A DNA stretch of 64,000 bases from Thuidium tamariscinum (taxonomy: Eukaryota; Streptophyta; Bryopsida; Hypnales; Thuidiaceae). The stretch covers positions 12,030,501 through 12,094,500 of the forward strand of contig OZ019759.1 of assembly GCA_947034885.2 (NCBI GenBank). The letters are read 5' to 3'. Shown here one piece after another: positions 6,481 through 59,639 of this stretch; position 1 is the stretch's first letter; each line of letters opens with the position of its first letter. The notes beneath the pieces are model-generated. The model did not search any database. It was not told where the DNA came from and saw nothing but the letters and a program-made list of their open reading frames with translations. The translations under genes were made by a program, and so were the position numbers.

Positions 6481-6562
6481 AATCTCTTGGGACAATATTC
6501 CGTGTCATATTATCACGTTTGGGTGTGATAAAGGTGCTTTCTGCTAGATTGCACGTACGACA

Positions 6563-39690: not shown

Positions 39691-41450
39691 GAAAAAACAA
39701 GAAAATTAAAAGATTAGAATAAATAGGAATGAATCAAGTCTAAGTCGGTAGCTAGCTTTGTGGCTTTAAAGTGTCCACATGATGATGTGTCCTAGCGTCA
39801 CAAGATGATAGGTTCAGCTCACATGGTTACACTCACATGATGGTACAATCTGACCACAAAATGACAACGACATGAGATAGCATCGCATGATGGTGTACCT
39901 GATAAAAGCAGGAGGGGGGTTGTAGTCTAGCATCCCCCGAGGTACACACTGGTGTGTCTAGTGGCTACTTCATTGCCACGTTGGGGCCAAGCCACCTACA
40001 GGCATGAAGACCCATGAGCTAGGCACAACCTTGGATTATTCTCTTATCATCAGGGCAAGGAGGCCGCCGCCTGATGGCTTATATGTTGTAACTCAAGCCA
40101 CCGATGCCAAGTAGCAGACCAACCAAGAGATAGGTAGGTCGATAGAACACCTATAGTATTAAGGGTCTATGGTGCTGCATCACCTCCACATGACCGTAGA
40201 ATTTTGCAAAATAGTCACCTTCCAGAGAGAATTTGACCGTGTGCCCTTGAGAGTAGACTGCAAGAGTGGGTCCTCCGCAGATGGCCGCCATATGTGAGCC
40301 CCGGATTCGTCATCGGCGACTCACGGGTTCTTTTTTCGAATTCCTACATAATCTAAGGCATAATTAGGCTTGTAAAACCTACAAAAGGGCATTAGACCGG
40401 TATTGGCATTACACATATCAATATGCCATTTGGTCATTAGAGGGGGTTTAGGATAGTTTGCATCCAAAACGGGCCTTGTCTTAGTTAAATAGACACCAAA
40501 CTGATAGTGATGTGCAAGATTAGGGTAAGAAGCCTAAAAAGGCCCTAGCTAGGTTAGGAAGTCCTCATGGGAGAATCTAGGAGGGATCCCCCACTCCCCA
40601 TAGCATCGAAGAGAATACGGGCGGAATACTAACCTTAAAATGTAGGTACCAGGCGATTTCCTAATTCTAAGAGCACGCAGTAGGGATGCAAATTTGCATC
40701 GAAGTGGGGGGATCCCATGGGTGGTCCCCTCTAAAGTTTGGGAATTTTCCAACATTGTTTGGATATTTTCCCAAACGGTCAACCGCGGTGGACTTTGGGT
40801 GGGAATTCGAAAGAATATCCCAAAGTGCGGTAAAATCCCACTAAAAATCCAGCGAGGTGGTCTCACACCAACGGAGCGCTTCCCCAAGTTTCAAGACAAA
40901 TCGATAGTTGGATGATCCCGAATCGGCGACATTCCTCCCCAACTGACAATTTAAATGACGGAAGTTGTAGTTGACCGGCGTACCGGGGCCATACGACATC
41001 GGATCAGGGCCTACTTTGGGTCTATTCCTACCTCCCTCTATCTACTTAGGAGGTTGGTAAAGGTTTGGGGTCCAAAATTGCCAAACTCCAAAAGTTGGGA
41101 ATTTATCCTAACTTTGACCCCAGCTTACACTGCGATTCTTTGAGAATTGGGACATAGTGTAAGAAGTGAGGGGTTCTCTTTTCAAGCTAATTATGGCCTT
41201 CCAAACCCAATGGCGCAATCCATTTGCCATTTGGAGCTAAACTCCAGAAGTTAGCCTTTTGGGGACAGCACATGGAAGAGAAAATGGGGTTTAAGGCCCC
41301 CCAATGCTTTTTTGGAGAGTTTGGGCCCCAATGGCCGTGGGGAACGTGTAGGGAACGCATGGGGAACTCTAGGCACATGTGGGAGCAAGTAATTTTTGAT
41401 TTACGTCCAGTCATGGTAAAAATGACAACAAGATTTACAACTTTATCAAG
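39691..41450 (+). repeat. Partner of the LTR-like region, diverged
   Basis: From 40276 the sequence starts with GCAGATGGCCGCCATATGTG, as at 22931, and has further patchy collinear similarity to about 41180. No TATA box like the one at 24509 was found. The part 39691-40275 shows only degenerate CACATGATG-type words. No gene is supported. Confidence 0.3.
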
Positions 41451-41793
41451 TATCCTCAAGTCGAGGATAACCCTTACAGAAGAAGGACTATTAGCAAGGG
41501 AACCGCAATCCGAGCTTCATGTAAAAGTTTAAACATAAAATGATACAATTATCAAATATCCAATATCAATATGTATTAGTACACTAAAGAGATATCCTCG
41601 ACTCGAGGATAAGTTCTTCATAAAAATCATGCACAGTACTACCAATGTTAGACTTATTCATCCACATATGCACCTTCAAAATTGAGTTAGAAGTCCTCAA
41701 AGTTCCTGAGTAATAACCTCAATCACTTCTGTGTTCTTTTTTATTATCATCGAGTCGATGATATCGACAACTGCTATCATCGACTCGATGATA
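41451..41793. repeat. Cluster of four 19-bp palindromes
   Basis: TATCCTCAAGTCGAGGATA at 41451-41469, TATCCTCGACTCGAGGATA at 41593-41611, TATCATCGAGTCGATGATA at 41745-41763, and TATCATCGACTCGATGATA at 41775-41793. The last three are perfect about the central base. They belong to the motif family found at 51.9-59.5 kb. The surrounding DNA is AT-rich and may be intronic or intergenic. Confidence 0.85.
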
Positions 41794-43686
41794 CATTACA
41801 TGTCTATGCCACAATTTCCGGCTACAAATTCGGAAGATACCCCAGACAATAACTCCATCAACAGCTCCGTGGAAGTCATTGTAAAGTGCATTGCACGACT
41901 TTCGAATGAATACAGAATCTCAAATAACATAGAAATGCGCACAAACATACGTCAAACATGCAATTCATAGAAAACACTACTTGCTACTTACTATGCAGGA
42001 TGATGATCTTGCAGACGATGTAGAGAGTACCTGAATCCGAAAACGTACTTGGTATCCACAGATGAAACAGCTCCAAGAAGTTGAAAGAAGTTGCAGAAGC
42101 GAATGCAAGATTGAGAAATAGAAAAAAAAGCGTGGTAGCAACAGGAGAGCATACAGTCAATCATTTGTGTAAGACGAAATGACTACGGTCTCAAGAAGAG
42201 AAGCGGGAGCTTCAAGACAGGAAGGGCGGGAAAAATAGGCGCGTAAGGGACATTATTTGAATTTGTCCAAATACCCGCCCTCAGACGCAACAATTTGGGC
42301 AAGTAGAACGAAACTTTTGGCGATGCCTTCGACAACTTTGGTGCACCGAATAAGCGGTCCGAAGTTGTTAATACTGAAATTCCGTGTATCCCCTAACAGA
42401 TTGACGGCATCTTATAGTCGGCTCCCTATTTTATGACCCTCCACAATTGTAGACACTAAATGTAGTTCGTTGACTTCCAAACTCCTACCACTGGAATCTG
42501 CAACTTTTCAGCCAACTTTTACAATGGCTGCCCACGCCTTTTAGTGAATTCCAATAGTAGTAAATTAGTCCTACGCTTTCATTTTTTTTAGATTATAGGG
42601 TTCAACTTCTTCCTTTAGTGTTCAACTTCCAACTGTAGGGAACTGAATCCTAAACCCTACACTTGGATCCTAAATCCTACACCTAAACCCTAAACCCTAT
42701 ACCTGAACCCTAAATCCAAATTGTGGAAGCCTATAGGGTTTAGGATTTAGATGTGGGGTTTAGAATTCAGTTCCTCACTTTTAGGCTTTGGATTTCAAGG
42801 TCTCGAATGGTTCAATTGCAAGGGTTTAAACTCACCAAAAAAACATTGATGATTCATTTGAACATGTGCCTTTCCTAAAGATTTAGAATAAATTATTTCC
42901 TATGAAATATTGTTAGTTATGTCCCAAAAACTTCTATACTCCATTCGTATTTGTTGTGCATATTTCTTTTCATTTTCTACTATAGGCATAAAATCTTTGT
43001 CTTCTAAAATATTTAAATGTAATTTTGATCTTAAGAGTTTAGGATAGTTATTCAATTTCTTCGCAAAATTGACTTTTAATACACTTTAGCGCGTGGCCAT
43101 ATTTTTAAGAACATTGAAGTACACCTAAAATTCTAGAAAAAATTAGATACTACAAGTTCATATAGATAAATACGTAAATGTTTTTTGTTTTGATAATCCA
43201 TCTTTGCATTCACATATGGCACATAACACTAAACTTATTCCTTAAAAAACTAAAAATACTATTATTAAAATAGCAAATTTGATTTCATTTCATGAAGGAT
43301 TTTGTATTTTTACCAACTCATACAGTTAGTGTTGCCCTAAATAGTCTACTTGTCTTCCTTTAAATTAGAATCAGATTATTGTAATTCATGTAATTTTGGA
43401 TAAAAGTCTAAAAATATTATACTATAAAACACTGGTAAACCAAGTAGTTTTAAAAACATTTCATATAATAACTTCAAGTTCATATTTACTTCTTGTAAAA
43501 AAGTGTTTTCAAAATAGCAAAGTTTTTCAAATACTTTTCATCGCATCATTGTAGATAAAGAAGCAACTATGAAGCAACTAAAATCCAAGAACATCTTATA
43601 CCTTCTATTTTCTAGTGAAAATAGATTTCACACCAAATTGTAAAATAGAAATGGACGAAGAGATTGAAGTCAAAGTTCATGGTAAT
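41794..43686. other. Stretch without a gene; telomere-like inverted repeat inside
   Basis: AT-rich DNA. At 42639-42774 degenerate CCCTAAA-type repeats are followed by TTTAGGG-type repeats, and the outer arms 42639-42662 and 42751-42774 are inverse copies (GGAACTGAATCCTAAACCC and its complement, with a few changes). No open frame of note. Confidence 0.6.
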
Positions 43687-44480
43687 TCCAACTTCTACAT
43701 TTGTTTTTGTCCATTCCCCACGTGAAATTTGGTATGATTTGATGCTTGCTTGAATTTTGAGAAAATGGCAGGTTTAGCCATTCTTCCGAATGGAAATAGA
43801 ATTGGGCATGCTTCCTTTTGCGAAACGAAAATTCCTCATGAACTCCAATGGTCTAGGGCCATTCCAACTTCTACGTATTTTTTTTGGCCATTCCTCACGT
43901 GAAATTGGGCATGATTGGATGCTTGCTTGAATTTTGAGAAAATGGCAGGTTTAGCCATTTTTCCAAATGGAAATAGAATTGGGCATGCTCCCTTTTGCGA
44001 AACCAAAATTCCTCATGGATTCCAATGGTCTAGGGCCATTCCAACTTCTACATTTTTTTTTGTCCATTTCCCATGTGAAAGTGGGCATGATTGGATGCTT
44101 GCTTGAATTTTGAGAAAATGGCAGGTTTAGCCATTCTTCCGAATGGAAATAGAATTGGGCATGCTCCCTTTTGTGAAACAAAAATTCCTCATGGATTCCA
44201 ATGGTCTAAGGCCATTCTAACTTCTACGTATTTTTTTTGGCCATTCCCCACGTGAAAGTGGGCATGATCGGATGCTTGCTTGAATTTTGAGAAAATGGCA
44301 GGTTTAGCCATTCTTCCGAATGGAAATAGAATTGGGCATGCTCCCTTTTGTGAAACAAAAATTCCTCATGGATTTGAATGGTCTAGGGCCATTCCAACTT
44401 CTACATTTTTTTTTTGTCCATTCCCCCATGTGAAATTGGGCATGATTGGATACTTGCTTGAATTTTGAGAAAATTACATG
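43687..44480 (+). repeat. Satellite-like array, ~177-bp unit, about 4.5 copies
   Basis: GATGCTTGCTTGAATTTTGA starts at 43741, 43918, 44094 and 44271, with a diverged start at 44449 and a partial unit before 43741. Copies are highly similar and share TTAGCCATTCTTCCGAATGG and ATTGGGCATG. The 177-bp length is typical of plant satellites. Confidence 0.95.
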
Positions 44481-47344
44481 TTTACCTTCCTTTTCAATTG
44501 GAATGTAATAATTTTCATGAAAACATAAATTCATATGCGTCAACTTCATGTTTTGTTATACAATATATTACATCTTTACAATATTTTTAAAGAAGGTTGA
44601 TTACAAATGAGTTGAGGGTTAACAAAGGGATTTACCTTCTATGCTTACATTCTAGGTATTGCAATTTTTTACCATACATTTGGGCAATTCAATGTGTTTT
44701 GTGAGCTCCTTTGAAGTTAAAATTCCAAAAAGTATGCTAATGAAATTTTAAACATTGTGTACTTCTTTAACTAGTTAGGAAACAGGATTTTATTTAAGGA
44801 AACTAAAATAGTAGATGCATTGGAGGTTTAATGAAAATGTTCAAATAAAACAAGTTGGTACAAGTATTTTGAGGTTGCAAGTGTTTGAAATCTAGAATAT
44901 AGCGAGGAATTTGATAATTTCCGAGAGTTCTAAAATATTATAGAAAGTACTATAGTTTAATAATTTTTTTTTAATATTGTTGTTCAGGTGTAAATTGTAT
45001 CCTTCTTGAAAATGATGGCATTGCTAAATGATTCACTTAAAATATCACAGAAGAAACCAATCATATGCTTTGATGAGAAATGATAGAGAAGTTGTTTTAC
45101 ATAAATTTTTCATAAAAAGGGATATCTTTTTCTTTTAGATCTTTTGAAATGTTTTTGTTTAAAAATTTGGAACCCTAAACAATATAATAGTAAAAAATTG
45201 AACAAACGAGAATCATCATTCATTTCCATTATTTCAATACTAGTTTAAAGTGTGGAATTGTACATCATCAAGACTAATGACAATCATGTCTCATGATTGT
45301 GCAAGTGTATAGTAATTGAGTATGCTAGTTGTTTGTGTCACCACAATGCAATGACCATGCCTTGTATAATAGAGGCCATCATTGATTTGAAATGAAGCGA
45401 ACATGATATTTGTCATAATTATGCATTAGTGAAGACTCTAAATGCTCATGACTTATGCCTTAGTTTAGGATTTCATGTCTCTTTCTTATTTTATATGTTA
45501 CATGAGAAGGTGGATGAGGAATTCATAAGGGAATATAAAAATCTAAATTTGAAGAAAAGTTTGCATTAGGTAATTAAGAAGTTGAAATCAAAATTTCTGA
45601 ACTTATTATAATTTTTGTTTTGTCACCAGACATCATTCGTGCTATCATTACAAGTTTAGAATATTCCACAAATGAACTTCTCAAATTATTTTGAAATATA
45701 TCAAGTACTACATTGAAGGGGTTTTAATAATTTATAATTAAATCTCAGTCTCTTTCATAATCCTAGAAAAATCACCAAAAAATGTTTGGATGAAAATTTT
45801 TTTATCATCTTTTGATGTTTAACTTCATAAGTTTCCTAATCACTCTAAGTTTCATTTATGAATACCTAGCATTGATTCAAATGTTTGAATTTGCAAATGC
45901 ACTAAACTTAGAAAAGGAGAATGGAACTCAGATGTCTAATGTTTCAAATTCTTTTTCTATGATTGTACGCTCTTTGAACTAGAAGTATGTGAAAGGTAAA
46001 CTCCTTTAAGTAAATAGTATTTCACATATATATATTTTTTTCACTTAGACACAGTTAAACTTTATATCGCCTAGGTGATCTACAAAGACATTAAACTTCA
46101 ACATCACATGTAATCCCTACCCCTTTCATATCCTCAAAAACTTAAATCATTAAAATAATCCTGAACTAACCTCTAAACACTTAAGGTCTGTTTTTTGGCA
46201 TTATAAAGTTTTTGGGTAGTTCACTACAAATAGAGTTTTTTTTCTTTGCATTACGTACACAAGATGTGCCCAAGGAGTATCTTTACAGCCTCAGTATATC
46301 CATAACTTTCGACTTTGTGGTTAAAAAGGTATGGCATGATTTGTCGTTTTCTTTACTCGGAGGGTAGCTTGGGCAATTGAGAAAACTTCTTTAGAAAACC
46401 TTATTTTTCAAAAGTGAAATTCCAAATTGATTCTTTAGGTTTGTATAGACATGAGAAGCTTTGTTTCATTCCATTTAAATTAAGGAGTGAAAAGTTATGA
46501 GCAATTTTAGTTTGTAAGTAGATTTGGAATTTTTCAGAACCATACCTAGGCTTGTTGTCTTCTAATTGTAGGCTGTATCGCAACATTGTAAAACATAGGT
46601 ATATTGTATACTTTGTAAGCGTGTCATTTTTTCCCTCAAAATAATGTAGTTGTTTTAAAATGAAGATTTAGAAGATAATGGTAAAGACCGTTAAGTGATA
46701 TGAAATATTGAAATACATGTGAAGTACTGGCCTTTGCAGCTTTCAGTTCTACGGTGAATTTGTAGAGCAAGTTTTCACTACCAAACAGGATTTGGCTAGA
46801 AAACATCCCCATTTTTTTTTAGTACATCCCCAAACAACTTTGAAATAAAGAAAAATATTAGATGAATTAGCCTAATTTTGGATGAAATGCATCATACACA
46901 TCCAAAAAATTCTATGTGAGGTGCAAATTAGAGCGTGCGCACAACATTTCATATCGCCCCTATGACTATTGTCCGAAAATGCATTAAAAGTATAAAAAAG
47001 CCCTGTTGGGACCACTGAAAATTTGGCAATTTTTGTGAAAGGGCGTTGATGTAGGTTTGGTGTAGGCTTTTGTGAACAAGCCGCAACCCAGACGTCACGT
47101 TCGGGAATTTTTTTGGCGGCTCGAGGAAGGTCAGCTGGCGGCTTGGGGTGCGGTATGGTGGATCTTCTTCCTCCACGTGCAATTCTCTCATTTTGTGCAT
47201 TTTTGGAGTTCGGGCGTCACTTTCGAATTCGCGTGGGTATTCTTGAGAGTCGGGGTTTACGGAGATTTGTTTTCTTGCGCTCTTCTTCAGAACATTTTCT
47301 TGATTTGTCGTACTTCTTCTCGAGCGTTGGGGCGGGCCAGATCC
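44481..47344. other. AT-rich stretch without a recognised gene
   Basis: No supportable ORF from 44481 to about 46940. From about 47040 the sequence becomes GC-richer and has promoter character, including CAGACGTCACG at about 47088, an ACGTCA element. Confidence 0.5.
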
Positions 47345-47350
47345 TATAAA
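47345..47350 (+). promoter_or_regulatory. TATA box of the host gene upstream of unit F
   Basis: TATAAA in GATCCTATAAATCCC, after a GC-richer region with an ACGTCA element. It precedes a leader without ATG that ends in a splice donor at 47585. Confidence 0.5.
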
Positions 47351-47374
47351 TCCCAAAGCTTTCATTGAGAGCAG

Positions 47375-47590
47375 CGGAAATTCTTATCTTCATTCCTAGA
47401 GCTCTCATTTGGGTTTAGGGTGAGTGCATTCGGGTGTGCATTGCATCGCAGGGGTCCGATCGGTTGTACATTGCAGCGGAGTGGTCCTGTTTGCATCTCT
47501 CTTGCAGCATTGGAGAGCATTGTGGAGCTGCTAGTGTGGCAAGGCATATTTTTGATTTTTTTCCGTTTAGCAAGTTTTGGGAACGTAAGT
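47375..47590 (+). other. Probable 5' UTR exon and splice donor
   Basis: About 210 bases without an ATG, starting some 25 bases after the TATA box, end in GAAC|GTAAGT (donor at 47585-47590). Unit F begins at the very next base (47591). The likely downstream gene is the ParB/methyltransferase-like gene at 52453; that link is inferred from orientation and position only. Confidence 0.4.
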
Positions 47591-47857
47591 CAGGAACTAA
47601 GCAACCGGAATTTCCCATGGAACAGGTAAGATCCTGCAATGATACCGGATAATGCTGTAGTGACTGGTAGCGGAACAAGTCCGGTCCATGACAATGGAAA
47701 ACCGGAACGGAAATGATTCCGGACCCCTACAGAACTAGAGTGGATCCTATCCGGATTCAGTTCCAGAACGGAACGGGTCCTTTCCGAACTTAGTACTGAT
47801 CGGATGGGAACGGAAACGGAAGATCAGGAACGGAAGACCGGATCCATTTTTGGAGAC

Positions 47858-47864
47858 TATATAA
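47858..47864 (+). promoter_or_regulatory. TATA box of unit F
   Basis: TATATAA in the same GGAGACTATATAAGGCC context as unit D, about 360 bases before the ATG. Confidence 0.65.
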
Positions 47865-48215
47865 GGCCTGACATTTTCAGTTGGCCCATTTGCTCTCAGG
47901 TGCTCCGTTGTGTGTTTTTCAACTCTCAGCGTTTTGAGTTCATTTGCCTTTCTGTGAGTTAGTTTTCTGCGCGCATTTTGTGGCGCAACTTTCTGTGGCG
48001 CGGCTGTCAGTGATAGCGTCTGGTATTTGTCAGAGCGGGCGATTGTTAGTGTGCGCGGGTTTCAGATGGCTGCGCCGGCGCGCTGGTGTGCGCGGGAGGT
48101 GTGTGTGTGTTTGTGCATGTGGTTATTACGGGCTGTCTGTGTTGTGAGTGTTTGTGAGGAACGGGACGTGCGGTTAGGAAGGAAGTGAGGTAGTGTGGGT
48201 TTCCGGATAGTTGCC

Positions 48216-49880
48216 ATGCCACAGCTACGCCGGAAGAAGAACGAGTCGACTACACCCTCGCCCGCAGGAGTGAAACTTAGAAAAGTAGTTCCGCTCATCC
48301 CTTCCATAGAGCCGGAGAAAGGCAACTTGATGGCGGACTTGACCACCATGGGGTGCCTAGGGTTTGCAGAGATACCTTGGGGGTTCAAAGAGGAACGGAT
48401 GGTCAAGGAGTTGTTGGGGAAGGTGTCGAACTAGTTCGACAACACGGCGCGGGGAATGGCGCACAAATGGACGGAAGCGCATTGGAGGGCTGTGTACGGG
48501 TTCAAGTACCAAGGGCATGGACCGGCCGGGAGGAAGGTAGACTTCCTCCAGAACAAGTTCCGCGGCACCCCTCACCCGAAGGACGGATTCCGGGTGATGG
48601 ATTGCAACGACGACAGGCATAGTCGCCTGTTGAAGTTTCTGCTTCCAGTCTTGCATCCGGAAAAGCCAACATGGGTGACGGTCGGCCTAGCCAACACGAT
48701 CTTCGGCACCCTGAGCGGAGAACGGAAGGAGGATTGGGGCCGGATAGTGGTGGACTTGATCACCCGGTTGCTAAACAACATCGGGAAGAGTAGGGCGACT
48801 CCCATCTCTCCCTACCTCTTCCACCTCTACCACCACTTGCAGCTCCTCACGGATACGGAGGAGAAGACGCGGAACGCTCAGGAGATAGTCTTGACGTACG
48901 GGGAGTCGGAAACGGACGATGAGGAGGTCTACTCCGAATCGGAGATGGAAGACGAGGACAAGAATGAGGAACCGGAAGTTCCGCTCGTGAAACGGCAAAA
49001 GACCACACCACCGAACACGAGAGGATCGCCTCCGGTCCGTAAGAATCCGGCTGTGGAAGACAAACCGGGACCATCCGAACCGGCAGCGGAAGAAACGGAT
49101 TCCAAAGATCCGTTCGAGAAGTTGACAGACATCCTATGCAACATCCGAGCGGATTGGGAGGTAAAACGGATCACCCTGGAGTCCATCGCGGGTATGGTTA
49201 ATGGCCAACCGGATCATACTCTTCCGGACGTGGTGGGGAACTGCATCGCCTCACCCATGGATCTCGCCAAGCAAGAGGCGGAAAACTAGAAACTTCAGGA
49301 GGAAATTGACGGTTTGAAGGCGGAACTCCTTGTTCTCAGGGACAACGAGGCTACTACTAAGGAGATGGCGGCGGAGACCGTCAAGCTGGCTAAGCACGTG
49401 AAGGCCATATTCGAGGAACCCGGATCGGCTGCCATCCGGGCTCGGCTATTTGACGAGGAGATCCACAAGGAGAAGAAACTATCCGGAAGTCGAATAGTCT
49501 GGATCCTCTCCGACTTCTCCGAGAAGGTGGAGACAACTCTAATGGAGGTTCAGAAGGCTGCCAAACGGATGGAAGACTGCAGCCGAAGACTAACGGAAAT
49601 TCCAGTCAGACTCTCCAATCTGTCTCTTCCGGATATTTCCGAAGGGTTGCCTCAAAGGCCAGGGAAGGACAGGACGCCGCAATCCAAGAAGTCGGAGTGG
49701 GCGTCGACGGGTCAACGGGAGGCGGCAATCCAATTGTCGGAGTCTCTTGTGAGCCCGGTCACTGGAACTCCGGTTGCAGTGGACGGAGACTGGAATCGAA
49801 ACCTCACTGAGGTTTTCGAGCAGATTAGAAGGGCGGAAAGCCCAACTATAGGCTCTAGAGTAATGGAGGCAGAAGAATAG
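48216..49880 (+). pseudogene. Unit F ORF, A-F family protein (554 codons, two stops)
   Basis: ATG 48216 (MPQLRRKKNESTTPSPA), one frame to TAG 49878-49880, broken only by TAG at 48432 and 49287, where unit D has CAG and CGG. Core blocks: EIPWGFKEERMVKELLGK, TPHPKDGFRVMDC, EKPTWVTVGLANTIFGTLSG and TPISPYLFHLYHHLQLL. Then come an acidic linker (YSESEMEDEDKNEEPE), KRQKT, a coiled coil and LFDEEIHKEKKLSGSRIV. D and F have stops at different codons, and each keeps the sense codon where the other is broken. Their common ancestor was therefore intact and recent. Confidence 0.8.
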
Positions 49881-51137
49881 ATGTTAGCCTTTTTGCATTT
49901 TTGACTTAGGATCGGATCAGGAAGTAATCCGGTCCGGATTTAGGAACTTGGAGCGGGTTGGAATCCGTTCCAGTTCAGGAGTAGGTAGGAACGGATTTGC
50001 CGAGCGTTAATCGCGGCAGACTTGTATGGCACTTTTTGTTTTTTGCCCATTATTTAAGTCAATCCCCTTGCGGTGGACTGGGAGTCTTTCATTTGCATTT
50101 CCTTGTGTATTTTATTCTCTCTTGTTTTGCGCATGTATCTCCCGAGTCTGGCAGGGCGGCGTGACGCGGAGTTAGGATGGCGCAAGTGGTTTTGCAGGCG
50201 GCATTCTCCCTTTGGTGTTTATTGTCCGCATCTAAATGTATGAGAACGGGTACAGAAGAGTTGGGAGTGTAATTCTAGTGCCTCAGCGCTTCTAGAACTT
50301 AAGATTCCGGGTGAAAAAGCCGTTGTTAGGCTAGACGAGAGGGAGGGATTCCTTAGTCGTGCTAGAGCTCCTGGGTGGGAAATCCAATTGAGTGTCCGAT
50401 CTCCTATGAGGTCTCACCGCCTTTGTGGCAAACGGAAGAGTTCTGGTTGACGTTGGAATGGACGGGTACACTTGTAACCACCCAACTCCACAGGAATGGG
50501 AAGTAATTCCAAAGTCGTTGTAGTATGAGAAGATCGTACGGGGGATCTATGTGTGACCTACAGTCCGGATTTCTATCTGTACTATTGTGAGAGATCAAAC
50601 CGGATCTAAAGTAACTTTAGAGTTAATGGGTAGAAAGTGGGTCTTCAGCCACTATAAGTCACGAAAGGAGCGGTGGGCCTACCGCTCACAAAATCAAGCG
50701 GCGACCCCTCTGATGGTAAAACAGAGGCAAAGCTAAACCGGATTAAGGAACAGGTACGTACGGATCATAGGGAACAAATTCGTCCAGAGAGGAAACCAAG
50801 AGCGGGATCCGTTAGGATGCGGATCCGTTGCAGTTTGACGGAACGGATAAGTTCCGGGAAACCGGAATAATCAGGGAGCGGATCCGTTCCGGACCAGATT
50901 GTTAGAATACCAATTTGTACGGGATAGCGGATTGTTGTCCTTGGGCTGTTTTGGTGTTTCCGGTTCTAAATCTAGAACCGGATTGTAGAATTTTTGGGAC
51001 TAACCTATCTTAATCGCTTAACAAGGCCAGATACTTCACAAAATCTCATGGGTTCGATCTTTAGAGTCACTTAGTTATACTCTACAGTGATTTTTGTGAC
51101 TATATAATGGGGAATTTACTTACCCTATATTGCGACA

Positions 51138-52452
51138 GCTAGGATTTTCGAGCTTTGTGTTTTCACGTGAGCGTGTGACTACTGCACGGTTTGGAGGCGC
51201 TGTCGGGTTTGTTGCGCCAAGGATTTCCGTCCTCCATTTCCAAATTCCTTATACAAGTGATTTCGATTGCCTTTGTGTGTGTTTGTTGTATTGAGATGTG
51301 TTCCAATGTTGAAGTTCCAATCCTGCCTCATTGCCTGGGCTTCAAATCGCAATTTATACTGTCTTTCTACAATTCTGTTTTCGTAGTTTCTGTTTGTAGT
51401 CCTCCAAAAGTGAGTGTCAGTTTTTGATACAGTAGTGTGTAGTTTAGGGTTTAAGCAAATTCTCTGAAGACTTTAGTTGATTGAATTCATTAACAAATGC
51501 TTTGAACTATCCAGGATCTTCTGTTTTGTAATCGACACAATTTTGCGTGCTTTAGCCCTCTAATTGCAGAGGTTTATTACAGTACTTCTCACATTCGGTA
51601 AGCTATTCCAGAACTTGTTGAATACCTTTATGTTAGTTTCATAGTACATAGGTGTGGAATGTTTTGTCTTTCTTTCTACTATAAATTAGGGTTTAGGCAC
51701 GGGGTTTAGGGTATAAGTGTATTGAAAAATAGAATATAACAACATAATTTTTATGGAATTAGGGTTCGGAAAAAGAAAATGGCCAGTATCTTCGAATCGG
51801 TGATAATATTAAAAGCACAAAGGTGAAGCCAAACTAAAAACTTAGGGTTTTAGGACTGAGAGAATGTTATCCTTGACCCGACGATACAACCAAAGCTGTG
51901 CATTTGAGAATTTTATCCTAGAGTGTAGTTATCGTCGAGTCGAGGATACTACCCAAACACGCTAGCCGATGAACTTGAACACTAAAACCGTACAAATGTA
52001 TTAGAAAAAAGTAACAAAGTAATATAAATCTCAGATCCACATAAATATCCAAAAATCCATCGCATTGCCCACTTCGATATCATGATTTCAAAGTTTCCTC
52101 TCTGTACATTATATCGTGAAGTAGTGTAGTTGTTATCCTCGATACGATGATAGATCCTAAATTCTGTTAGAAGAATTAGTTCATATTAAGAATCTGTAGA
52201 CAGATCTCTCGTGGTACAAACTGTAGAGTGCAAGAAGTAACTTATAACTAAACCCCGATATTATGAATGCTGGATGTGAGAATGTAACTTCCTTCTCGTT
52301 CAAAATGGATTAAGCTGCCTCTCTTCCATAGCTTTTTGGTCAGTGAAAGGCTTTCAAACACTTATTTGTAAAGTATTACGTCATATCTTTGAGTTGACAA
52401 TAACATTGTCATGACTAACGATACATGTGCTCATAATGATGCAGAATTTCAA
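51138..52452 (+). other. Upstream/intronic region of the ParB-like gene with three palindromes
   Basis: No long ORF. Palindromic 19-mers lie at 51868-51886, 51930-51948 and 52134-52152. A telomere-like TTAGGGTTTAGG patch is at about 51688. An acceptor-like ATGATGCAG precedes the first coding block at 52443. Confidence 0.45.
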
Positions 52453-54256
52453 ATGGGGACAGCAGAGGACTACGATTACTCCCTTACGGCTGACCACCTT
52501 CAGCGGTTCATTAACCCCTTGCAGGACGAGCCATTCATTTCAGAAATGCAAAAAATTTATGGGACCCTGTAGGAGTTTAAGAGTCATATCCACATCTGGT
52601 GTTTTGGGGTGAACCGGTTTAAGAACTACGTGTACCTGCGTTACCGTGTTGAAGGAACCACCGTGTATATGCCCTGGAATACAAAAGAGAAGGTGAATTT
52701 CATTGAAGAGCATCACAAAGACTTTGTTGTGATCGTGCTTCAAAAAGTAGACGATGCTGGCAACGTCAAGGATCACATCGTATTGAACATGAATTCATAT
52801 CACGGGAATTCGATATAGATAATTTAATAATATTCTTGGAAGGCTCAGCGATGGAGTCATTGAATGCGCATTTTTTGAAAGCTGAGTACGTTACTTGGAA
52901 GAACAACACTACTAAGTCCAATGCCACTCGATTGCGCCTCATTTTTCAAACATTGGACCGTTACACTATGGAACACGTGGTAAAACAGCCTGTCATTGGT
53001 CGTCCCACTGAGCAGAGACAACGTCCAGTGAACCTTGATCAAGGTAGAAGAACTACGACTAGTGCCGGGTCAGGGAGCAAAGCTTCAAAACCTGGTTAGT
53101 CGAGATCTGAGCCCAAGAAAAGGAACCCTCCTCCACAAGAAGGTGAGTCAAGTAGGAAAAGAAAGAAGAGCCTTTCGTCTACAGCAGCTGCTGCCAACAG
53201 TTCCGCTTCCGCACTCACTACCGTATCAGGGGGTGCAGCAAAATCTGAACCTGAGATTCCAGACTTTAAGAAGTTTGACGAGATTCAGAAGAAGTTTTGG
53301 GTTGAGCACAAGAAGTGCTTTCTGTTTGATGAAGAGACAGTGAAAGTTGACATCAAACAGTGCAATGTGGCGTGTCCCGAGTACGTGATTCGTACTCTTC
53401 AGAGAGACATTCTAGAGGCCGCGAAGAAGGAGCTCATCCAGCTAATAGACGTCAAACAAAGGTAGAAAGTGTGCCTTACTCCAGTGGGTTTGGATGGAGA
53501 CCTATTGCCCCACAAACCAAGGAAGTGGGATGATATTAAGGCTAGCTACTTCATGATTATTAATGGCCAGCATAGCATAAAAGCTTCTCAAGAGCTGCAA
53601 CTAGGCGGCTGTGGGGAAGCCAGGAAGGTGGAACTAAAGACTTGGGATGATTACATCGTATGATCTCTGGACGATAACCAATTAAGAAACATATTGAAGT
53701 TCTATAACTGCACCAATCACTTAAACCACGCTCAACCGACGTGGGGCAACCAAGTAATTAGTTGCAGAAGGATTTGGGTTACTTACGGTCGTCCGACTGA
53801 CATGGAATTAGAGGATGGGACACAAAAAAAATGGAGCAACAGTTGACCTAGTGAAATATAAGGTGAGTATCATCGACTCGATGATATCTTAGGTTCAGTG
53901 TAGGTGTTCAATCTTGCATTCTTCATGGTGAAGAAGTAAAATTCTATAAATTTTTTCACAAATGGTAATCGTACAAATGCTTGGATTATCATTGAGTTGA
54001 CGATATGGCATGATCACTTGCAAAATGTTTGACAAATGATATTGTGAACTGTTTTGCAGAATTTCACGGACGTTGTCATCGAACGGTTCAGAAATATAAA
54101 CCCGGACCAGGATGGCACCTCGATTAGTGGAACCTCAGATCTCAAGAATGAGATCCAAATAATCACCCTGCTCGACGACCTGTGGGAGTTCTGGGAGAGC
54201 TTCTTGACGAAGCACTCCGACGGTGACTTGGTTGACTCCTTTGACTTTGGAATCAT
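52453..54256 (+). pseudogene. ParB-like N-terminal half of a decayed multi-exon gene
   Basis: The reading starts at ATG 52453 (MGTAEDYDYSLTADHLQRF), with TAG at 52570, a frameshift near 52816, stops near 53097, 53463 and 53661, and another frame change in an A run near 53825. Between them lie a basic Ser/Ala-rich segment with NLS-like SSRKRKKS and the block ASYFMIINGQHSIKASQELQ. The last resembles the GQHR..A loop of ParB/sulfiredoxin-fold domains, with Ser in place of Arg. It is followed by a helical stretch (SLDDNQLRNILKFYNCTNHL). An intron (53863-54059, GTGAGT...TTTTGCAG) leads to NFTDVVIERFRNINPDQDG. Such domains bind DNA or use NTP in bacteria and phages. The assignment is by motif only. 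Confidence 0.5.
53863..54059 (+). other. Intron with two palindromes
   Basis: Donor AAG|GTGAGT, acceptor TTTTGCAG|A. The palindrome at 53868 overlaps the last base of the donor hexamer, so a hairpin in the RNA would touch the 5' splice site. A second site is at 53987. Confidence 0.6.
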
Positions 54257-54259
54257 ATA

Positions 54260-55877
54260 AAGCGAACAACCTATTCAAAGCAAAGAACATGTCATTGAAG
54301 AGGGAGTTCTTCAAGCACTGCGGACACTTCACGGACATTCAAGGACTTCGGTGTCAACGCACAACACCTGCTCGGTTTGACCCCAAGACGGATTTGTAAA
54401 TATCCGAAGGTCTCCGTCGCGTCGACCAGAGTTCTAGTTCCTGACAACATGACCCACAAGGAGTGGGTCGAGTGCAGGAAGCGTAAAAAGGTTGTGCTAC
54501 AAGATCTCATGGCAATTAATCCAAGCTTGAAGTTCATCACAACTGGTAGTGAGGTTCTGAATGAGACCTGGAAGTCTTGGAAGGCCAGACATCAATTCAC
54601 CTCAGCTTCATGGGACTTCCTGCTAATGCACCCGGGCGTTGATTACTTCAAGAGGCGATTAAGGAACGATGCATGGTTGAAGCGCGCAAAGGACCTGGAG
54701 AACTAATTTCCCGCGATTCTGCACATGTTTCAACGTTTCATGAAGCTGAAGTATCAACTTCCTAATCCGTTTGGTGGTGTTCAATTTAGAGGCGTGGACT
54801 ACTCAAAGATGGCACTGGTAACGAGCTCAAGTTATCGCTACCATAGTTGCCATGTGAACTTCGCACTGGTCAATTTCAGGGTGGCTCCAAGAGAGAAGCC
54901 CACAGACACAAGCAGTGCCATAGGTCGTTTCTTGACCTTTCTGTGGGAGAATCTTTCGCCAAAATGAATGAAGCCAACGTGTGGCTCTTCATTTTGCGGG
55001 AATCAGATGACATCAAAGCCACGAAGGCCTTTGCGTTGCTTCATATGACAGATTATGAGAGCGTTTTGTCCACGTACCATCCAGCTAGAGCTGAGCTTTT
55101 GGACAATGTGACCTCTCGAGGGACGGCTCCCAACGTGTCCTTCTTCTTCCTATTCAAAAAGAATAACGAGTTTGCAGCGTCTAGTCGAGCGTTCTTGAAG
55201 TCAAGTTATTCGACTGTCCCAACAAATGTATATTACTCGGATTGGGGGAAGAATACTGAAGCGAAGTGGAGGATTAATCCTGGCGAACTCTGTATGGAGT
55301 TTTATTTGGACATCCTTCAAGCTTTTGCAAAGTCAGAGGAGAACATCCTTGGCATTTACGCAGGGGCAAAGTTCATGCTTGCAGCTAAGGTGAGTACCTG
55401 ACCCTTTCTGGGAGTTATCCTCGACTCGATGATATCGTCTTTTGTACTCCTCTGAATTATGCAGACATCGAGTGTTGGTAACTAGCTTAGTGAAATCTGG
55501 TATCATCAACCTGATGATACCCGTCGCGGCGGCCACGATATCAAGTTCCTTGATGATGTTCTAATAGAACTGGTTTTTGTATTTTGCAGATGTTTGGGGC
55601 CTTCTACAGTTATGGATTCGTCAACAAGAGTGAGGTGAAGTCCTACAAAGCGATCTTTTCTCTAGCAGAGAAGATGGATAAAAGGGACTTCATGATTGGG
55701 AATTCGCCATACTCCTTGGATTACGTGAAGCCTCAATCACGTGGACCAATTGTAGCACGATTGGACTCGCCACCATCGCCGACTACTACTTTTGTCTCCC
55801 CAGCTTTAGTAGTTCGACCTTCTTCTCGGGTGAGAGAAAACGTTGGCTCGCACGTAACACCAGATCCGAGGGTCTAG
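54260..55877 (+). pseudogene. Methyltransferase-like second half of the same gene
   Basis: The reading changes frame near 54345 and 54960, with a TAA near 54704. The part from about 54830 to 55650 has the order expected for a beta-class (N4/N6) amino-methyltransferase. A strand and loop (CHVNFALVNFRVAP) sit where DPPY normally lies, then helices (SAIGRFLTFLWENLSP), an intervening region (FYSD/YYSDWGK), and near the end ENILGIYAGAKFMLAAKMFG, which matches the usual LDPFxGSGTTxxAAxxxGR motif I. No DPPY-type catalytic tetrapeptide is visible, so even before decay this copy may have lacked activity. An intron (55390-55589) splits the motif I block, AAK|MFG. ParB-like plus methyltransferase fusions are known in bacteria and phages; I infer the family from layout. 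Confidence 0.45.
55390..55589 (+). other. Intron with two palindromes
   Basis: Donor AAG|GTGAGT at 55390, acceptor TATTTTGCAG|A at 55589. Palindromes at 55416-55434 and 55501-55519. Confidence 0.6.
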
Positions 55878-57165
55878 GGAATTAACGAGTATGGAACAAA
55901 CACGTTCCAGATATATCTCTGGGCATCTGTACCTGCTGCTGGCAACAAGGCTGCACAACCCGCTGTGCCTGAACCTAATGAGCTGGAGGTTTTGGAGATT
56001 GTAGAACATCAGCCTTCTCCACGAGCACAGTTGAATTCTGCTTCAGCCAAGCATGACAAGTCCCAGGATGACGAGAGTATAGAGACAGACTCAGAATTCG
56101 AGCGACAACAGGCAGAGCGGAGAACGAAACGTCGGGAGGAAGAGGACTCCCTGGGCTTCGAAGGCAAGGAAGACTCATTCAAGAAGTCGCCTGTGAAGGA
56201 AGGAGAGGACAAATCCGAAGGTGAAGATGTGGTCATGTAAGAAAGGAGGCTTTCCATCAGTGAGGTGGACAAAGATGGGAAGCCTCTCTTTTATAACTTC
56301 GGAGATGATGATGACCCCATGGATCATCCCCACAATTCGGATCACGACGACGACGATCACAATGGTCCTCCGAAGCAGAAGGAATTGAAACCCTTAGTCC
56401 TCCCCGACGGGACAACAATCAAAATCGAAAAGGACTACTGGGCAGAGCAAGAGGAGGTGAGAAGAAAGCGGATCGAGAGGACAGCCGAGAAGAAAGCGAA
56501 GGACAAGCTGTTGGAGGAAACAAATGCCAAACTCATCCCTGTCACGCAAGAGTCCGTGCAGTCAAAGGAGAAGATGTCTGAGCTGGAGCTCAAATTGTAG
56601 AAGCTCTCTCAACTAGTAGAGAGTTAGTTTGGTCCAACGACTATCCAGTCGCAGCTTCCCTCGCCTGCCCCACCTGCCGTCTCAGTTCCTCCTCCAATGC
56701 AGCAACTAGTTTCTGTACCTTCGTATCCTTGACTCGAGGATACTTCCTAAGTCGTTTCCTTAGTCGACATTAAAGTCGTCGAATGCACTCCTGCATCCCA
56801 GCTCAGGGTGAGGATGGCATCACCAGAGGTGGATGCATTTGAGGTGGCAGTACCTCAACCGCAAGGACCTACTAAAGAACAGGCTCGAGATTATTGTCGA
56901 CTCAACGATATCGTTAAAGTCGTGAAGGAGCAGCCCTCGAGTTCAATATCGGCGCCTGAACTTGATACGTGTGAACAAGCCCATGCAGACTTCCTCTCCG
57001 GTCGAAGAGGAGGAGAGATTGGACTATGGGGAGAACGACCCCGATGAAATCGTCCCTAGGGAAGGGGAAGATCAAGTTGTTGCGATGGAGGTTGGAGATC
57101 AAGGTCCTCTCAACCCGGCAGAACCGACGTTGGTACAATCCTTTGGTCCTTACGCTTTTGATTGA
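55590..57165 (+). pseudogene. Charged C-terminal region of the ParB/methyltransferase-like gene
   Basis: One frame from 55590 to about 56632 has stops only at 55875, 56238 and 56598. It is strongly charged: RRTKRREEEDSLGFEGKEDS, an Asp/His-rich patch (DDDDPMDHPHNSDHDDDD), and a predicted coiled coil (QEEVRRKRIERTAEKKAK). Palindromes at 56724 and 56893 follow. An acidic end (DPDEIVPREGEDQVVAMEVG) closes at TGA 57163-57165. It probably formed a flexible or coiled-coil tail. No catalytic motif seen. Confidence 0.5.
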
Positions 57166-57561
57166 ATATGAAAACACGAGATAAGGTACTTGACCCTGTA
57201 GAAATGAGATGTTCTTTAGAGAATTGTAATTCTTATAATGATTTGTCATGTCTCACAGGAGGGAGTCGACACTCCTTGACATCCTGGCGTTGACAGAGAA
57301 CCCGTTTGTGGCGGACAAAAATGTAGTATAATGTAGAGTAGTTTTGGAGTGTACAACCTTAACGGCCTTAAAATTTTGAAAATGTATTTTATACACCGTG
57401 CAAATAAAATTTCGGAATTTCCAATCTATATAAGTGTGTATATCTAATTGAATTCCCTTATCAATGTTTTTGATTCAGCTCAAGGTTAGTGTAAGCTTGC
57501 ATCACCCGCTACCCATGAAGCCAATTTCTAAAGGAAGGGCGCAGTCCAGTAGCGAGTTGCA
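57166..57561. other. Spacer before the HAD gene
   Basis: AT-rich. Contains a donor-like ATAAG|GTACTTG (57183) and acceptor-like CTCACAG (57259), so it may include a terminal intron of the preceding gene. A short reading at 57464-57560 precedes the next ORF. Confidence 0.4.
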
Positions 57562-58482
57562 ATGGGTCTCTCCGCATTTTGGCTTTACCAGTCCTGCAAT
57601 TATTCAGGTAACTCCAACTCTTTGTTGGTCTGGTTTGATCAGGTAGGATCGGAGGGAGGAAGGGAGGTCATGCAGACGATTGAGCGTCCGATCATGCCTC
57701 CGCCGAGGAGGAAGTGGCTGAACATTGTCTTTGACCTGAACGGGGTGCTTTGTCACTCCGCGTCGACAAAATTCGGCAAAGACTTCAAGCACTACAAGGT
57801 CGAAGACAATGTTCTCAGCCATCGGTACCCGACCATCATCGGGTCCAAGGCTGTATTTGCTAGGCAGAACGTCGGCGAATTTTTGAAACATGTGTCTGAA
57901 ATCGCGAATAAGGTCGTGGTCTGGTCGTCAATGTACAAGTATAACGCGGAGGCCATCGCGGGACACTTGTTCGGGAGGTGCAGACCGCCCTACAACGTCC
58001 TAGGACAGGAAAACTGTACGAAGATAGAGTACAATCTCGGGAAGTTCTTCCACCGTGATGTGAAAGAATTGAACATAAAAGTACTCAAGCATGGTCTGTT
58101 CGACAATTTCGGAAATGCAGGGTCGTCATTTTCCTCGGACAACACCCTGCTCATTGATGACTCTCCCGAAAAGAGTGTCTGCAATGAGATGGGGAACTCC
58201 ATCTTTCTGGAGACCTGGAGCTATGTTCATCGAAGGGATGACGTCCTCATGGGACAACTGCTTCCGTGGCTCCAACGGCTGCATTCGGGGTGCAACCCCC
58301 ACGAGGGGTTGCTCCGATACATAGACGAGAATGGGATAGGCAATAATCCCCTTTCTCGTGACCATTTTCATCTCAAGGAAATCCTTGAGGTCATGAGGGA
58401 GTCGGCCGATTGCAAGAACACTCGTTTCGAAGTGCCTCTGGTAGGAATCACCATTGAGAGACGCTGTCGTTGTAGAAAATAG
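57562..58482 (+). CDS. FCP1/NLI-interacting-factor-like HAD protein
   Basis: An intact 306-codon ORF with ATG at 57562; a second in-frame ATG at 57670 (MQTIERPIMPP, residue 37) is an alternative start, and the first 36 residues may include unspliced intron (GGTAACTCC...TTGATCAG). The FCP1-homology fold covers about residues 52-240. Motif I is FDLNGVLCH (residues 57-65), with Asn-60 replacing the second catalytic Asp of the usual DLDET/DLDGT. Motif II is VVWSSMY (119-125), and motif IV LLIDDSPEK (196-204) is complete. The family dephosphorylates Ser/Thr phosphoproteins such as the RNA polymerase II tail. The Asp-to-Asn change at the general acid suggests weak or altered activity. It is the only apparently intact host gene in the window. 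Confidence 0.8.
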   Translation: MGLSAFWLYQSCNYSGNSNSLLVWFDQVGSEGGREVMQTIERPIMPPPRRKWLNIVFDLNGVLCHSASTKFGKDFKHYKVEDNVLSHRYPTIIGSKAVFARQNVGEFLKHVSEIANKVVVWSSMYKYNAEAIAGHLFGRCRPPYNVLGQENCTKIEYNLGKFFHRDVKELNIKVLKHGLFDNFGNAGSSFSSDNTLLIDDSPEKSVCNEMGNSIFLETWSYVHRRDDVLMGQLLPWLQRLHSGCNPHEGLLRYIDENGIGNNPLSRDHFHLKEILEVMRESADCKNTRFEVPLVGITIERRCRCRK

Positions 58483-58721
58483 ATTTTTTTGATTGTAGAA
58501 TTAGGCATCGAGGGAGTCCAAGAAAATGGTAACTAATTTTTTATGTACGTAATGTTTTTTTGTAAAATAAATATAATGTTTTTTTTATAGCATTCTACAT
58601 TCATCTTGAAAATCTTGTGCTTCATCAATCTTAATGGATAGCAAGTTCCACATGTATCCGTGTACTTATAGCAAGGACCGTCTTTGGATTTGGAACTCTT
58701 GTTTTATTCCAAGTTGGAGCT
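58483..58721. other. Downstream region of the HAD gene
   Basis: AT-rich with AAATAAATATAATG near 58566, a plausible polyadenylation context. No ORF supported. Confidence 0.4.
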
Positions 58722-59628
58722 TTGCGTTCTATTCCAACGCCAGGAAAAGAAAAGCTCACGAAGAGCCTCCTCTCAGGATCAAAGATTTTGCCCTCCACCA
58801 AATCTGATTTTGGTGGTGAGAGCTGCGAATCAGTTCCAATATCCAAGCCTTACATGTTCCGTTCAGCCACAGATGCGGCATCAGCTGCCATAGACTTTTC
58901 CAAGGGGAATATTGAAGATGGCGTCGTGGACAGCCCTTCGAGTTGCACTACGGGCAGGACTCCCATTTGCTTGCCGTCACCATTGAAACGAACATCCTCG
59001 AGCCGAGGAAGGTGTTGGTCGCCGACTCCGCAAAGGGATGGAGCAACCAGTCGAAAGCTCGAACTCCTTGTCGAAGATGCTCTAGGGCATCCTTGCCTCG
59101 AGGATAATCTTGCCCCTTTGAATCGGTTGTCTGCTAGCCCTATCATGGTTGTGGGTTTCCAACTTGAACCTGCTGCTCTTGATGTCCCTATTTCGCTCAC
59201 CTTGATTCCAGGACAATCCAACCCGTTCCTCCAATTCGACAGGGGGAAGGCGCCTGCCATCCACAGATAGTCTTTTCCGTCAAAGATTTTTTAGAGAATA
59301 TCGACGCTCTCTAGACACCGTGTCTACCAAAACTACTCTTCCGTTATTAAACAATGAGAAGGGCCCTCTGCCTAAACCGCCCCCACGGAATCCCAAATCT
59401 ATTTCCACTTCTGCCGTTCCTCCGAGCACGCGATCATCGAAACGGAAAGCTAACGAATGTCATAGTCTAAGTGAGACTGGAACTCTGTACAATGAAAATG
59501 GATCACATTATTCATCTCGACCCGAGGATATCTTAAGAGGTCTTGCAAAGCTGAAAGCCGAAGAGGCAGGGAAGGCTGTATATGTAGTTAAGTGCAAAGC
59601 TGCTAAAAAAGATTCAAGCTCTTACTAG
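58722..59628 (+). pseudogene. Unidentified broken gene, Ser/Pro-rich
   Basis: Two open stretches, 58722-59270 and 59320-59628, lie in different frames with stops between. The first has SFGGESCESVP-like Ser/Gly sequence and PISLTLIPGQSNPFLQFDRG. The second is Pro/Ser/Lys-rich (PLPKPPPRNPKSISTS; SSKRKANECH) with a short helix (EDILRGLAKLKAEEAGK). Three degenerate copies of the 19-bp palindrome lie within it. Its composition resembles the tail of the ParB/methyltransferase-like gene, but I see no shared motif. Confidence 0.35.
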
Positions 59629-59639
59629 CTGTAAGAATG

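Follow-up and report, generated by a model that had tools for sequence, protein, structure and literature searches.

Palindromic site arrays in a large DNA transposon family of Thuidium tamariscinum: candidate binding sites for a transposon-encoded protein

The window analyzed here, a stretch of 64,000 nucleotides from the Thuidium tamariscinum genome (contig OZ019759.1, positions 12,030,501 to 12,094,500), contains a truncated and decayed copy of a DNA transposon with terminal inverted repeats (TIRs) at 41393..60160. The copy is collinear with a complete one (C1:25055514-25076431), to which two long pieces are 91–92% identical and two shorter pieces 87% and 74%, and it lacks the end that carries the DUF7869 gene. 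The TIR on the gene A side, AAGGCCTTATTGGTTAAATTGAGACAAA as read on the reverse strand, lies at 60133..60160. A foreign insert of approximately 3.6 kb occupies about 47538-51137, limits that are the ends of alignments, and a 177-bp tandem array at 43685..44474, situated in non-coding DNA in the middle of the element, aligns to the complete copy. On the forward strand lies a decayed gene A, comprising exon 1 (52465..53862, its end an inferred splice site and its start approximate), exon 2 (54060..55389, bounded by inferred splice sites) and an exon 3 region (55590..57160, its end approximate). This gene is followed by an open frame for a NIF/FCP-type phosphatase at 57553..58479 (Pfam PF03031, E=5.3e-13; motif FDLNGVL) and, 3' of it, by conserved open frames at 58635..59625. 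The frame at 58635-59267 has relatives in nine other loci, and no Pfam match was found for it and two of its relatives. Searches of the window with Rfam, at the gathering threshold, and with ARAGORN gave no matches.

Within this element lies a family of 19-bp palindromes. A scan of the window with TATCMTCGANTCGAKGATA found 5 exact copies, 9 at ≤1 mismatch, 14 at ≤3 and 17 at ≤4 mismatches, compared with an average of 0.06, and never more than 1, at ≤3 mismatches in 100 dinucleotide-preserving shuffles. All 17 matches fall into two clusters, 4 at 41451-41793 and 13 at 51787-59530, in agreement with the original prediction of about 16 copies in two clusters, although its list of copies had missed the site at 51787. 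The first cluster consists of a site with one mismatch (41451..41469) and three exact sites (41593..41611, 41745..41763 and 41775..41793). Upstream of gene A are sites at 51787..51805 (2 mismatches), 51868..51886 (3 mismatches), 51930..51948 and 52134..52152 (1 mismatch each). Intron 1 of gene A contains an exact site at 53868..53886, 5 bp past the inferred 5' splice site, and another with 3 mismatches at 53987..54005, and intron 2 contains a site exact to the consensus at 55416..55434 and one with 3 mismatches at 55501..55519. A site with one mismatch in the exon 3 region (56724..56742) has as its counterpart the exonic site 2952 of L018, and a weak site with 3 mismatches (59088..59106) lies within the last open frame. 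The four palindromes with perfect 9-bp arms around a one-base center that had been reported (41593, 41745, 41775 and 53868) were all recovered, and no others of that shape occur in the window. The argument that such structures are rare holds for the shared sequence, which is exceptional, but not for perfect 9-bp-arm inverted repeats as such, which are not rare here (0–4 for each other spacer of 0 to 11 bases).

The motif is not local to the window, since its excess over a reversed control extends across the 363-Mb genome: 1,598 places at ≤1 mismatch, compared with 2 for the control, and 1,532 exact occurrences of TATCNTCGRNYCGANGATA, compared with 0. The palindromes belong to one family of TIR DNA transposons, typically 17–23 kb in length, whose TIRs begin with AAGGCCWTATTCRTTAAA; the TIR pattern was found at ≤1 mismatch in 353+348 places genome-wide and in none for the reversed control. 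The family carries a DUF7869 gene, gene A and a NIF-type phosphatase gene, and two of its genes are divergent. Assignment to DUF7869 (PF25273) follows from the score of L014:2-2359, 155.5 bits against a Pfam gathering threshold of 26. The element termini are AAGGCC, and a 4-bp target site duplication (TSD) was present in all five copies in which both flanks were read (TTAT, CGTA, AGAT, AAAG and TGAG). No TSD lengths by which the element could be assigned to a superfamily were given in the available parts of PMC4455052, and a literature search for DUF7869 by name found no paper. Among the first 50 exact TATCNTCGRNYCGANGATA sites listed, all on C1, 31 lie between facing listed TIRs, 8 lie in L054 at 3.9–15 kb inside its TIR, 6 have one TIR within 18 kb, and 5 are near no listed TIR.

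Gene A and the DUF7869 gene tend to occur together. Among the best-scoring copies listed (87 of 542, 150 of 474 and 150 of 855 for the gene A and DUF7869 lists), 56 of the 87 gene A rows lay no more than 25 kb from a listed DUF7869 row, on the opposite strand in 53 cases, compared with a mean of 5.5 under random placement, in which the lengths of C4, C8 and C10 were guessed. From the DUF7869 candidates (the best 150 of 855 genome places scored), we sampled every seventh row of a list numbered by hand, giving 20 regions, with row 30 replacing row 29 and rows 99 and 148 left out. A listed gene A row lay within 30 kb of 12 of the 14 motif-bearing DUF7869 rows and of none of the 6 motif-free ones, a limit chosen after the distances were known, and lists of best-scoring copies bias such co-occurrence; at 25 kb, with the same distances, the counts were 10/14 and 0/6. 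Five of the 20 regions had no palindrome cluster of either kind described here, indicating that not every DUF7869 element needs one.

Across the family, the palindromes are found 5' of both divergent genes, within the introns of gene A and in a few exons. When sites at ≤1 mismatch were scanned by type of region, they were found to favor non-coding DNA, with 1.42/kb compared with 0.24/kb in the coding footprint of 17 loci. The 145 sites in these loci comprised 129 in non-coding DNA and 16 in the coding footprint, and some of the latter are truly intronic. One to three sites at ≤4 mismatches were present in 21/21 of the gene A intron regions printed, a set picked by hand with the site positions known and from which intron 2 of L007 was left out. 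The spacing of sites within loci makes local duplication likely: two successive intervals in L033 measure 29 bases, and several intervals in L012 measure about 90.

The sites are better conserved than the DNA around them. In alignments that were 60–70% identical, the 14 fixed letters of the site were 96.7% identical, compared with 64.2% in the 80-bp flanks (41 site pairs). In each of the five identity classes the fixed letters were better conserved than the flanks, and the difference was greatest for distant pairs; these comparisons are non-independent, and conserved sites tend to serve as anchors for alignments. Sites also recur in gene A introns between which little other sequence similarity is visible. 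The idea that all copies might lie inside one larger repeat that accounts for them is therefore correct in its first part, because they do lie inside one element, but not in its second, because each element has many separate sites that are more constrained than their flanks.

We suggest, with a probability of roughly one half, that the palindromes are cis-acting arrays of binding sites for a homodimeric, sequence-specific protein that is encoded by the transposon and controls its own family. Of the three options put forward in the original prediction, a putative protein-binding site is the best supported. That a protein binds the palindromes appears very probable, and that this protein is encoded by the element seems reasonably probable, with gene A as the first candidate. 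The transposon-encoded dimer would dock at palindromes spread over the element's non-coding DNA, and the docked protein could then coat and control its family of elements. The most plausible outcome would be that the elements are kept free of silencing, as with VANC on VANDAL elements, and/or that the two divergent genes of the element are driven; by analogy, we regard anti-silencing as a tentative possibility, at slightly less than even odds.

An alternative, which we consider possible but unlikely, is that the palindromes are accessory binding sites used in synapsis or transposition by the transposase (assumed to be the product of the DUF7869 gene), as with the subterminal repeats of CACTA elements. 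The sites are element-specific and form clusters immediately 5' of the DUF7869 gene, and a dimeric transposase would suit palindromes. However, the strong sites (≤2 mismatches to the originally reported consensus) are not subterminal. In 8/8 copies the one closest to the DUF7869-side TIR lies 3.4–3.9 kb away; on this side three of the eight stretches were gap-free and five contained unread gaps, which ranged from 9 to about 2,160 bases. The nearest strong site to the gene-A-side TIR is at least 3.1 kb distant in 7/8 copies and 1.2 kb distant in L022. Weak sites, with 2 mismatches to the wider consensus or to the originally reported one, do occur 0.8–1.5 kb from the gene-A-side TIR in 5/8 copies, which is in keeping with a role for the transposase, but it is hard to see what sites within introns of a different gene would contribute to end recognition.

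It is also conceivable, albeit distinctly unlikely, that the palindromes bind a host transcription factor and are enhancers or promoters that the element has captured. The clusters found upstream of both divergent genes are in line with this reading, and the 5 of 50 listed C1 sites near no listed TIR are compatible with it; the other 45, however, are tied to element ends, and sites are also found in introns and some exons. The palindromes themselves vary between elements, with C/G-, A/T-, T/A- and G/C-type arms. One related element, L041, the single locus of this kind read, has a different palindrome, TTCAGACCGCGCGGTCTGAA, at the same position upstream of its DUF7869 gene, and binding by a fixed host factor would leave this difference unexplained. 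The N-terminal part of the L041 DUF7869 protein is 34% identical to its L019 counterpart, and TTCAGACCGCGCGGTCTGAA occurs in 1,053 places genome-wide at ≤2 mismatches, compared with 0 for the control.

We consider it quite improbable that the palindromes act as RNA hairpins or DNA cruciforms, as the original prediction had also proposed. Dyad symmetry would be in line with such structures, and arm position 5, where covariation had been noted, was indeed symmetric in 170/288 sites compared with 92.9 expected if the arms were independent. Nevertheless, 118/288 sites are asymmetric at this position, which weakens the hairpin reading. Once near-duplicate flanks had been removed, a step applied solely to this count, 101/186 sites were symmetric compared with 88.4 (sd 5.4) when arms were shuffled within loci, and 74 of 5000 shuffles reached 101. 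Coupling within loci is thus weak, and the symmetry at position 5 is mostly an element-level base preference. Paired changes were slightly above expectation at positions 1, 2, 7 and 8; at position 9 and its partner, by contrast, one-sided changes numbered 40 and 46 against 2 paired, with 6.3 expected (320 sites at ≤3 mismatches), although the mismatch limit itself disfavors paired changes there. Finally, that the palindromes are passive repeats, microsatellite-like or tiny mobile units, carried along by the element is scarcely credible in spite of the likely local duplication, because the sites outlast their flanks, belong to a far larger transposon and recur in introns that share little else, and the earlier suggestion of a tiny mobile unit is accordingly unsupported. 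A microsatellite and a plain excess of palindromes were likewise set aside on the basis of site conservation, recurrence in introns and counts of inverted repeats.

The proposed binding of family-specific sites by a transposon's own protein would have a parallel in Arabidopsis, where VANC proteins free VANDAL elements of silencing. As described in the available parts of PMC5735166, VANC motifs are short (the 9-base YAGTATTAY), are arrayed in one orientation and vary from one subfamily to another; they occupy introns as well as intergenic and terminal non-coding DNA. From what is accessible of that study and of PMC10398659, the two systems resemble each other in that a DNA transposon with several genes has short, element-specific motifs concentrated in its introns and its intergenic and upstream non-coding DNA, and in motif types that differ between related families, represented here by the arm types and by the single locus with a different palindrome, L041. 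They differ in that our elements have 19-bp palindromes and are of another transposon type, with a 4-bp target duplication and a DUF7869 gene. The target duplication of MULEs is 8–9 bp, and the 5/5 copies with a 4-bp duplication do not fit that superfamily. CACTA/En-Spm elements have CACTA/G termini, a 3-bp TSD and many copies of a short motif in their subterminal repeats; the Thuidium family likewise has many copies of a short motif in one DNA transposon, but its termini are AAGGCC, its TSD is 4 bp, and its strong sites are internal rather than subterminal. A limited literature search, mostly of records without full texts, found no description of such a palindrome-bearing transposon. As far as the accessible parts of the literature indicate, self-recognition by transposons and resistance to silencing are known in detail for few systems, such as VANDAL/VANC. 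The large family with a DUF7869 gene described here provides, within one Thuidium genome, far more than a thousand natural sites with several types of arm, as well as one wholly different palindrome in a related element. This variety offers a ready test of how the sites of a DNA-binding protein change along with it.

Gene A is under selection, with dN/dS values of 0.12–0.19 among L020, L008 and L007. Profile searches of Pfam, NCBIfam, PHROGs and PDB gave no significant match to it, the weak ones including DUF6551 (E=0.1), and found no recognizable DNA-binding domain. In exon 1, relatives carry a block of the form QRQ - IINGQHSI - ISxxYN, in which QRQ, NGQHS and YN are invariant in all 9 rows of the gene A alignment A4; no relatives of this block were found in viral contigs, prokaryote genomes or phages. 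The motifs listed for DGQHR domains in the available parts of PMC4619093 are QR, DGQHR and FxxxN. The QR pair, IINGQHSI and ISxxYN of gene A follow one another in a similar order, and palindromes lie beside the gene, as in ParB-parS systems; NGQHS stands in place of DGQHR, with D and R replaced. By its order alone, this set of motifs suggests that the gene A product may have a ParB/Srx-like domain of the DGQHR type. It is a speculative and rather improbable extension that the element contains a ParB-parS-like system in a eukaryotic DNA transposon, in which a gene A dimer of ParB/Srx fold would load at the family-specific palindromes, spread over the 20-kb element, mark it as self and protect it against silencing, while the protein and its palindrome would co-evolve between families. 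An hhalign comparison of A4 with one ParB sequence scored 0.1 on a 0–100 scale, which is not significant; its alignment placed NGQHS on the GERR box.

The 19-bp palindrome family of the original prediction is real: its consensus, TATCMTCGANTCGAKGATA, matched 14 places in the window at up to three mismatches, compared with a mean of 0.06 in 100 shuffles, and the claimed confinement to two clusters was borne out, with all 17 places at up to four mismatches falling within 41451-41793 and 51787-59530. Four perfect palindromes with 9-bp arms and a one-base centre had been singled out as exceptional. Every one is a copy of the motif, but perfect 9-bp-arm inverted repeats also occur 0-4 times in the window for each remaining spacer of 0 to 11 bases, so the striking part is the common sequence, and not palindromy as such. 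A scan of the 363-Mb genome (19 contigs; window at C11:12030501-12094500), as had been proposed, found 1,598 places at up to one mismatch, compared with 2 for the reversed pattern. A wider form, TATCNTCGRNYCGANGATA, occurred exactly at 1,532 places compared with 0 in the control; simple arithmetic with equal base use gives a chance expectation of about 0.3 genome-wide.

Loci fetched around motif sites on contig C1 aligned with the window and with one another. A complete copy at C1:25055514-25076431 was collinear with window 41393-60163, with identities of 91-92% in two long pieces and of 87% and 74% in a shorter pair, and lacked an insert of about 3.6 kb found in the window copy at about 47538-51137. 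The ends of the complete copy are inverted repeats starting AAGGCC, a 4-bp target duplication (TTAT, CGTA, AGAT, AAAG, TGAG) was present in all five copies for which both flanks were read, and the TIR pattern, at up to one mismatch, occurred at 353 plus 348 places genome-wide (control, 0), with many facing TIRs, among the matches listed, 17-23 kb apart and a few 39-45 kb apart. These features identify the carrier as a large TIR transposon. In the window, the left end of the element is missing, and the DUF7869 gene was lost with that end.

The DUF7869 gene, at one element end (PF25273 match, 155.5 bits; at least 150 places scored in the genome), encodes a putative transposase, judging from its position in the element and from acidic blocks recognized by eye. 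In the opposite orientation lie gene A, with three large exons, a NIF-type phosphatase gene (PF03031, E=5.3e-13) and more conserved open frames. A listed DUF7869 match lay within 25 kb of 56 of the 87 listed gene A matches, compared with 5.5 for random placement using guessed lengths for three contigs, and 53 of these 56 pairs were on opposite strands. Both regions of gene A that were tested gave dN/dS values of 0.12-0.19 in comparisons among three loci (L020, L008 and L007), and gene A is under purifying selection where dS is unsaturated. Summed over the 87 listed matches, in-frame stops in exon 1 comprised 108 TAG, 21 TAA and 13 TGA, a bias that CHG methylation decay, from CAG to TAG, would explain. 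The element phosphatase (window 57553-58479 and relatives) reads DLNGVL in 8 of 10 printed copies, the other two pieces beginning past this region, at the place where FCP/SCP enzymes have DxDx(T/V); the genome search with PF03031 gave 466 candidates, of which 150, element copies included, were scored. Contig C11 (17.5 Mb) represents 4.8% of the genome, yet has 47 of the 150 listed DUF7869 matches and 37 of the 87 for gene A; it might be a sex chromosome or some other chromosome rich in repeats.

Sites form clusters in the upstream DNA of both the DUF7869 gene and gene A, with further sites inside gene A introns. At up to one mismatch to the wider form, their density was 1.42 per kb in non-coding DNA compared with 0.24 per kb in the coding footprint (129 and 16, respectively, of 145 sites at 17 loci). 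All 21 printed gene A intron regions, hand-picked with site positions already known, contained 1-3 sites at up to four mismatches, often one at 5-30 bases past the 5' splice site, followed by another some 100 bases later; judged by eye, introns of different families had little other sequence visibly in common. In the exon-3 region of gene A, all nine sites tested, several at matching positions and hence not independent, were in a single frame encoding Y/H-P/R-R-L/V-E/D-D, and DNA and protein constraint may overlap here. The peptide encoded at the exon-3 palindromes of L005, L010, L015, L018 and L022 is short and charged. At up to two mismatches to TATCMTCGANTCGAKGATA, the site nearest the DUF7869-side TIR was 3.4-3.9 kb away in all eight copies, with gaps of between 9 and about 2,160 unread bases in five of them; from the gene-A-side TIR the distance was at least 3.1 kb in seven of eight copies and 1.2 kb in L022, with weaker sites at 0.8-1.5 kb in five of the eight.

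The sites are conserved beyond their surroundings. Where alignments had 60-70% identity, the 14 fixed site letters were 96.7% identical (41 site pairs, the partner itself an exact site in 24) compared with 64.2% in 80-bp flanks, and at 80-90% identity they were 95.7% identical compared with 77.9% (38 pairs); the magnitude of the difference is approximate, since conserved stretches serve to anchor the alignments and the site pairs lack independence. Decayed sites (n=137) showed a modest excess of CpG transitions, with 62 of 177 mismatches being transitions at the two CpGs, which account for 4 of 16 constrained positions. The predicted covariation at arm position 5 holds overall (symmetric in 170 of 288 sites, 92.9 expected), but mostly reflects base preference at the level of the element: with comparison confined to single loci, 101 of 186 sites were symmetric compared with 88.4 expected (sd 5.4), a value reached in 74 of 5000 shuffles. 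Symmetric changes in both arms at positions 1, 2, 7 and 8 were in slight excess (4, 1, 4 and 3, with 1.2, 0.2, 2.3 and 0.7 expected for all paired changes), and those at positions 6 and 9 fell below expectation (0 and 2, compared with 1.0 and 6.3). A hairpin had been suggested for these sites. However, A/T- and C/G-type sites are both present in one element, and position 5 breaks the symmetry in 118 of 288 sites, a pattern that fits two half-sites read by a putative dimer better.

Twenty DUF7869 regions were sampled independently of the motif (every 7th listed match). Fourteen had at least three upstream sites at up to three mismatches, and six had none. Five of these six (L027-L031), which are among the 30 best-scoring matches and have AT-rich upstream DNA, had no repeated palindrome upstream of DUF7869 and no listed gene A match within 200 kb, and are perhaps DUF7869 elements arranged in another way. 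In the sixth, L041, another palindrome, TTCAGACCGCGCGGTCTGAA, is present in seven copies (up to three mismatches) in the same position upstream of its DUF7869 gene, whose product shares 34% identity with the L019 protein in its N-terminal part; at up to two mismatches, TTCAGACCGCGCGGTCTGAA occurred at 1,053 places genome-wide (control, none). A listed gene A match lay within 30 kb, a limit chosen after the distances were known, of 12 of the 14 motif-bearing matches and 0 of the 6 motif-free ones (one-sided Fisher 0.0007), and within 25 kb of 10 of 14 and 0 of 6 (0.005). Because the listed gene A matches are the best-scoring copies, a diverged gene A may lie near L041.

With moderate confidence, we suggest that this transposon family carries putative element-specific protein-binding arrays, made of palindromes, that would resemble the VANC system, their closest working analogue. 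VANC21 binds YAGTATTAY motifs, which differ from the palindromes here, in the introns of VANDAL21 and in its intergenic and terminal non-coding DNA, motif types vary among VANDAL subfamilies (PMC5735166), and silencing and anti-silencing both act on motif-bearing non-coding regions (PMC10398659). The 4-bp target duplication rules out membership of the carrier in the VANDAL family. The putative sites could alternatively serve transcriptional control or transposition. As a lead to the binder, the gene A product may be a DGQHR-type ParB/Srx protein. In 9 of 9 sequences, exon 1 ends in a conserved block (QRQ.CLTP ... W..IK.G.F.IINGQHSI ... LQ ... W...IVW.L ... IS..YN.TNHL) with the same motif order as the QR pair, DGQHR and FxxxN of the DGQHR domain, to which GmrS, assigned to the ParB/Srx fold, is related, according to a paper on GmrSD (PMC4619093); the letters match in part, gene A having NGQHS. 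Profile searches gave no support for a ParB/Srx-type domain in gene A, and hhalign of the block alignment against one ParB scored 0.1 on a scale of 0-100.

Other repeats occur in the window. A 177-bp tandem array at 11686-13091 has two inverted halves with 579-bp arms 99% complementary, and a second 177-bp array inside the element (43685-44474) has a relative in L011. TTTAGGG-type repeats, which suggest that the DNA comes from a land plant, are found at 63774-63818. A sequence at 29892-32507 recurs in direct orientation some 17.7 kb away (47591-50239), the copies being 85-97% alike in pieces; the latter lies mainly within the insert that splits the transposon, and two of its open frames had no Pfam match above cut-off. 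Long inverted repeats at 2810-6562 and 17930-21695 are 79-95% complementary in pieces, and by eye their open frames resemble those at 48435-49286.
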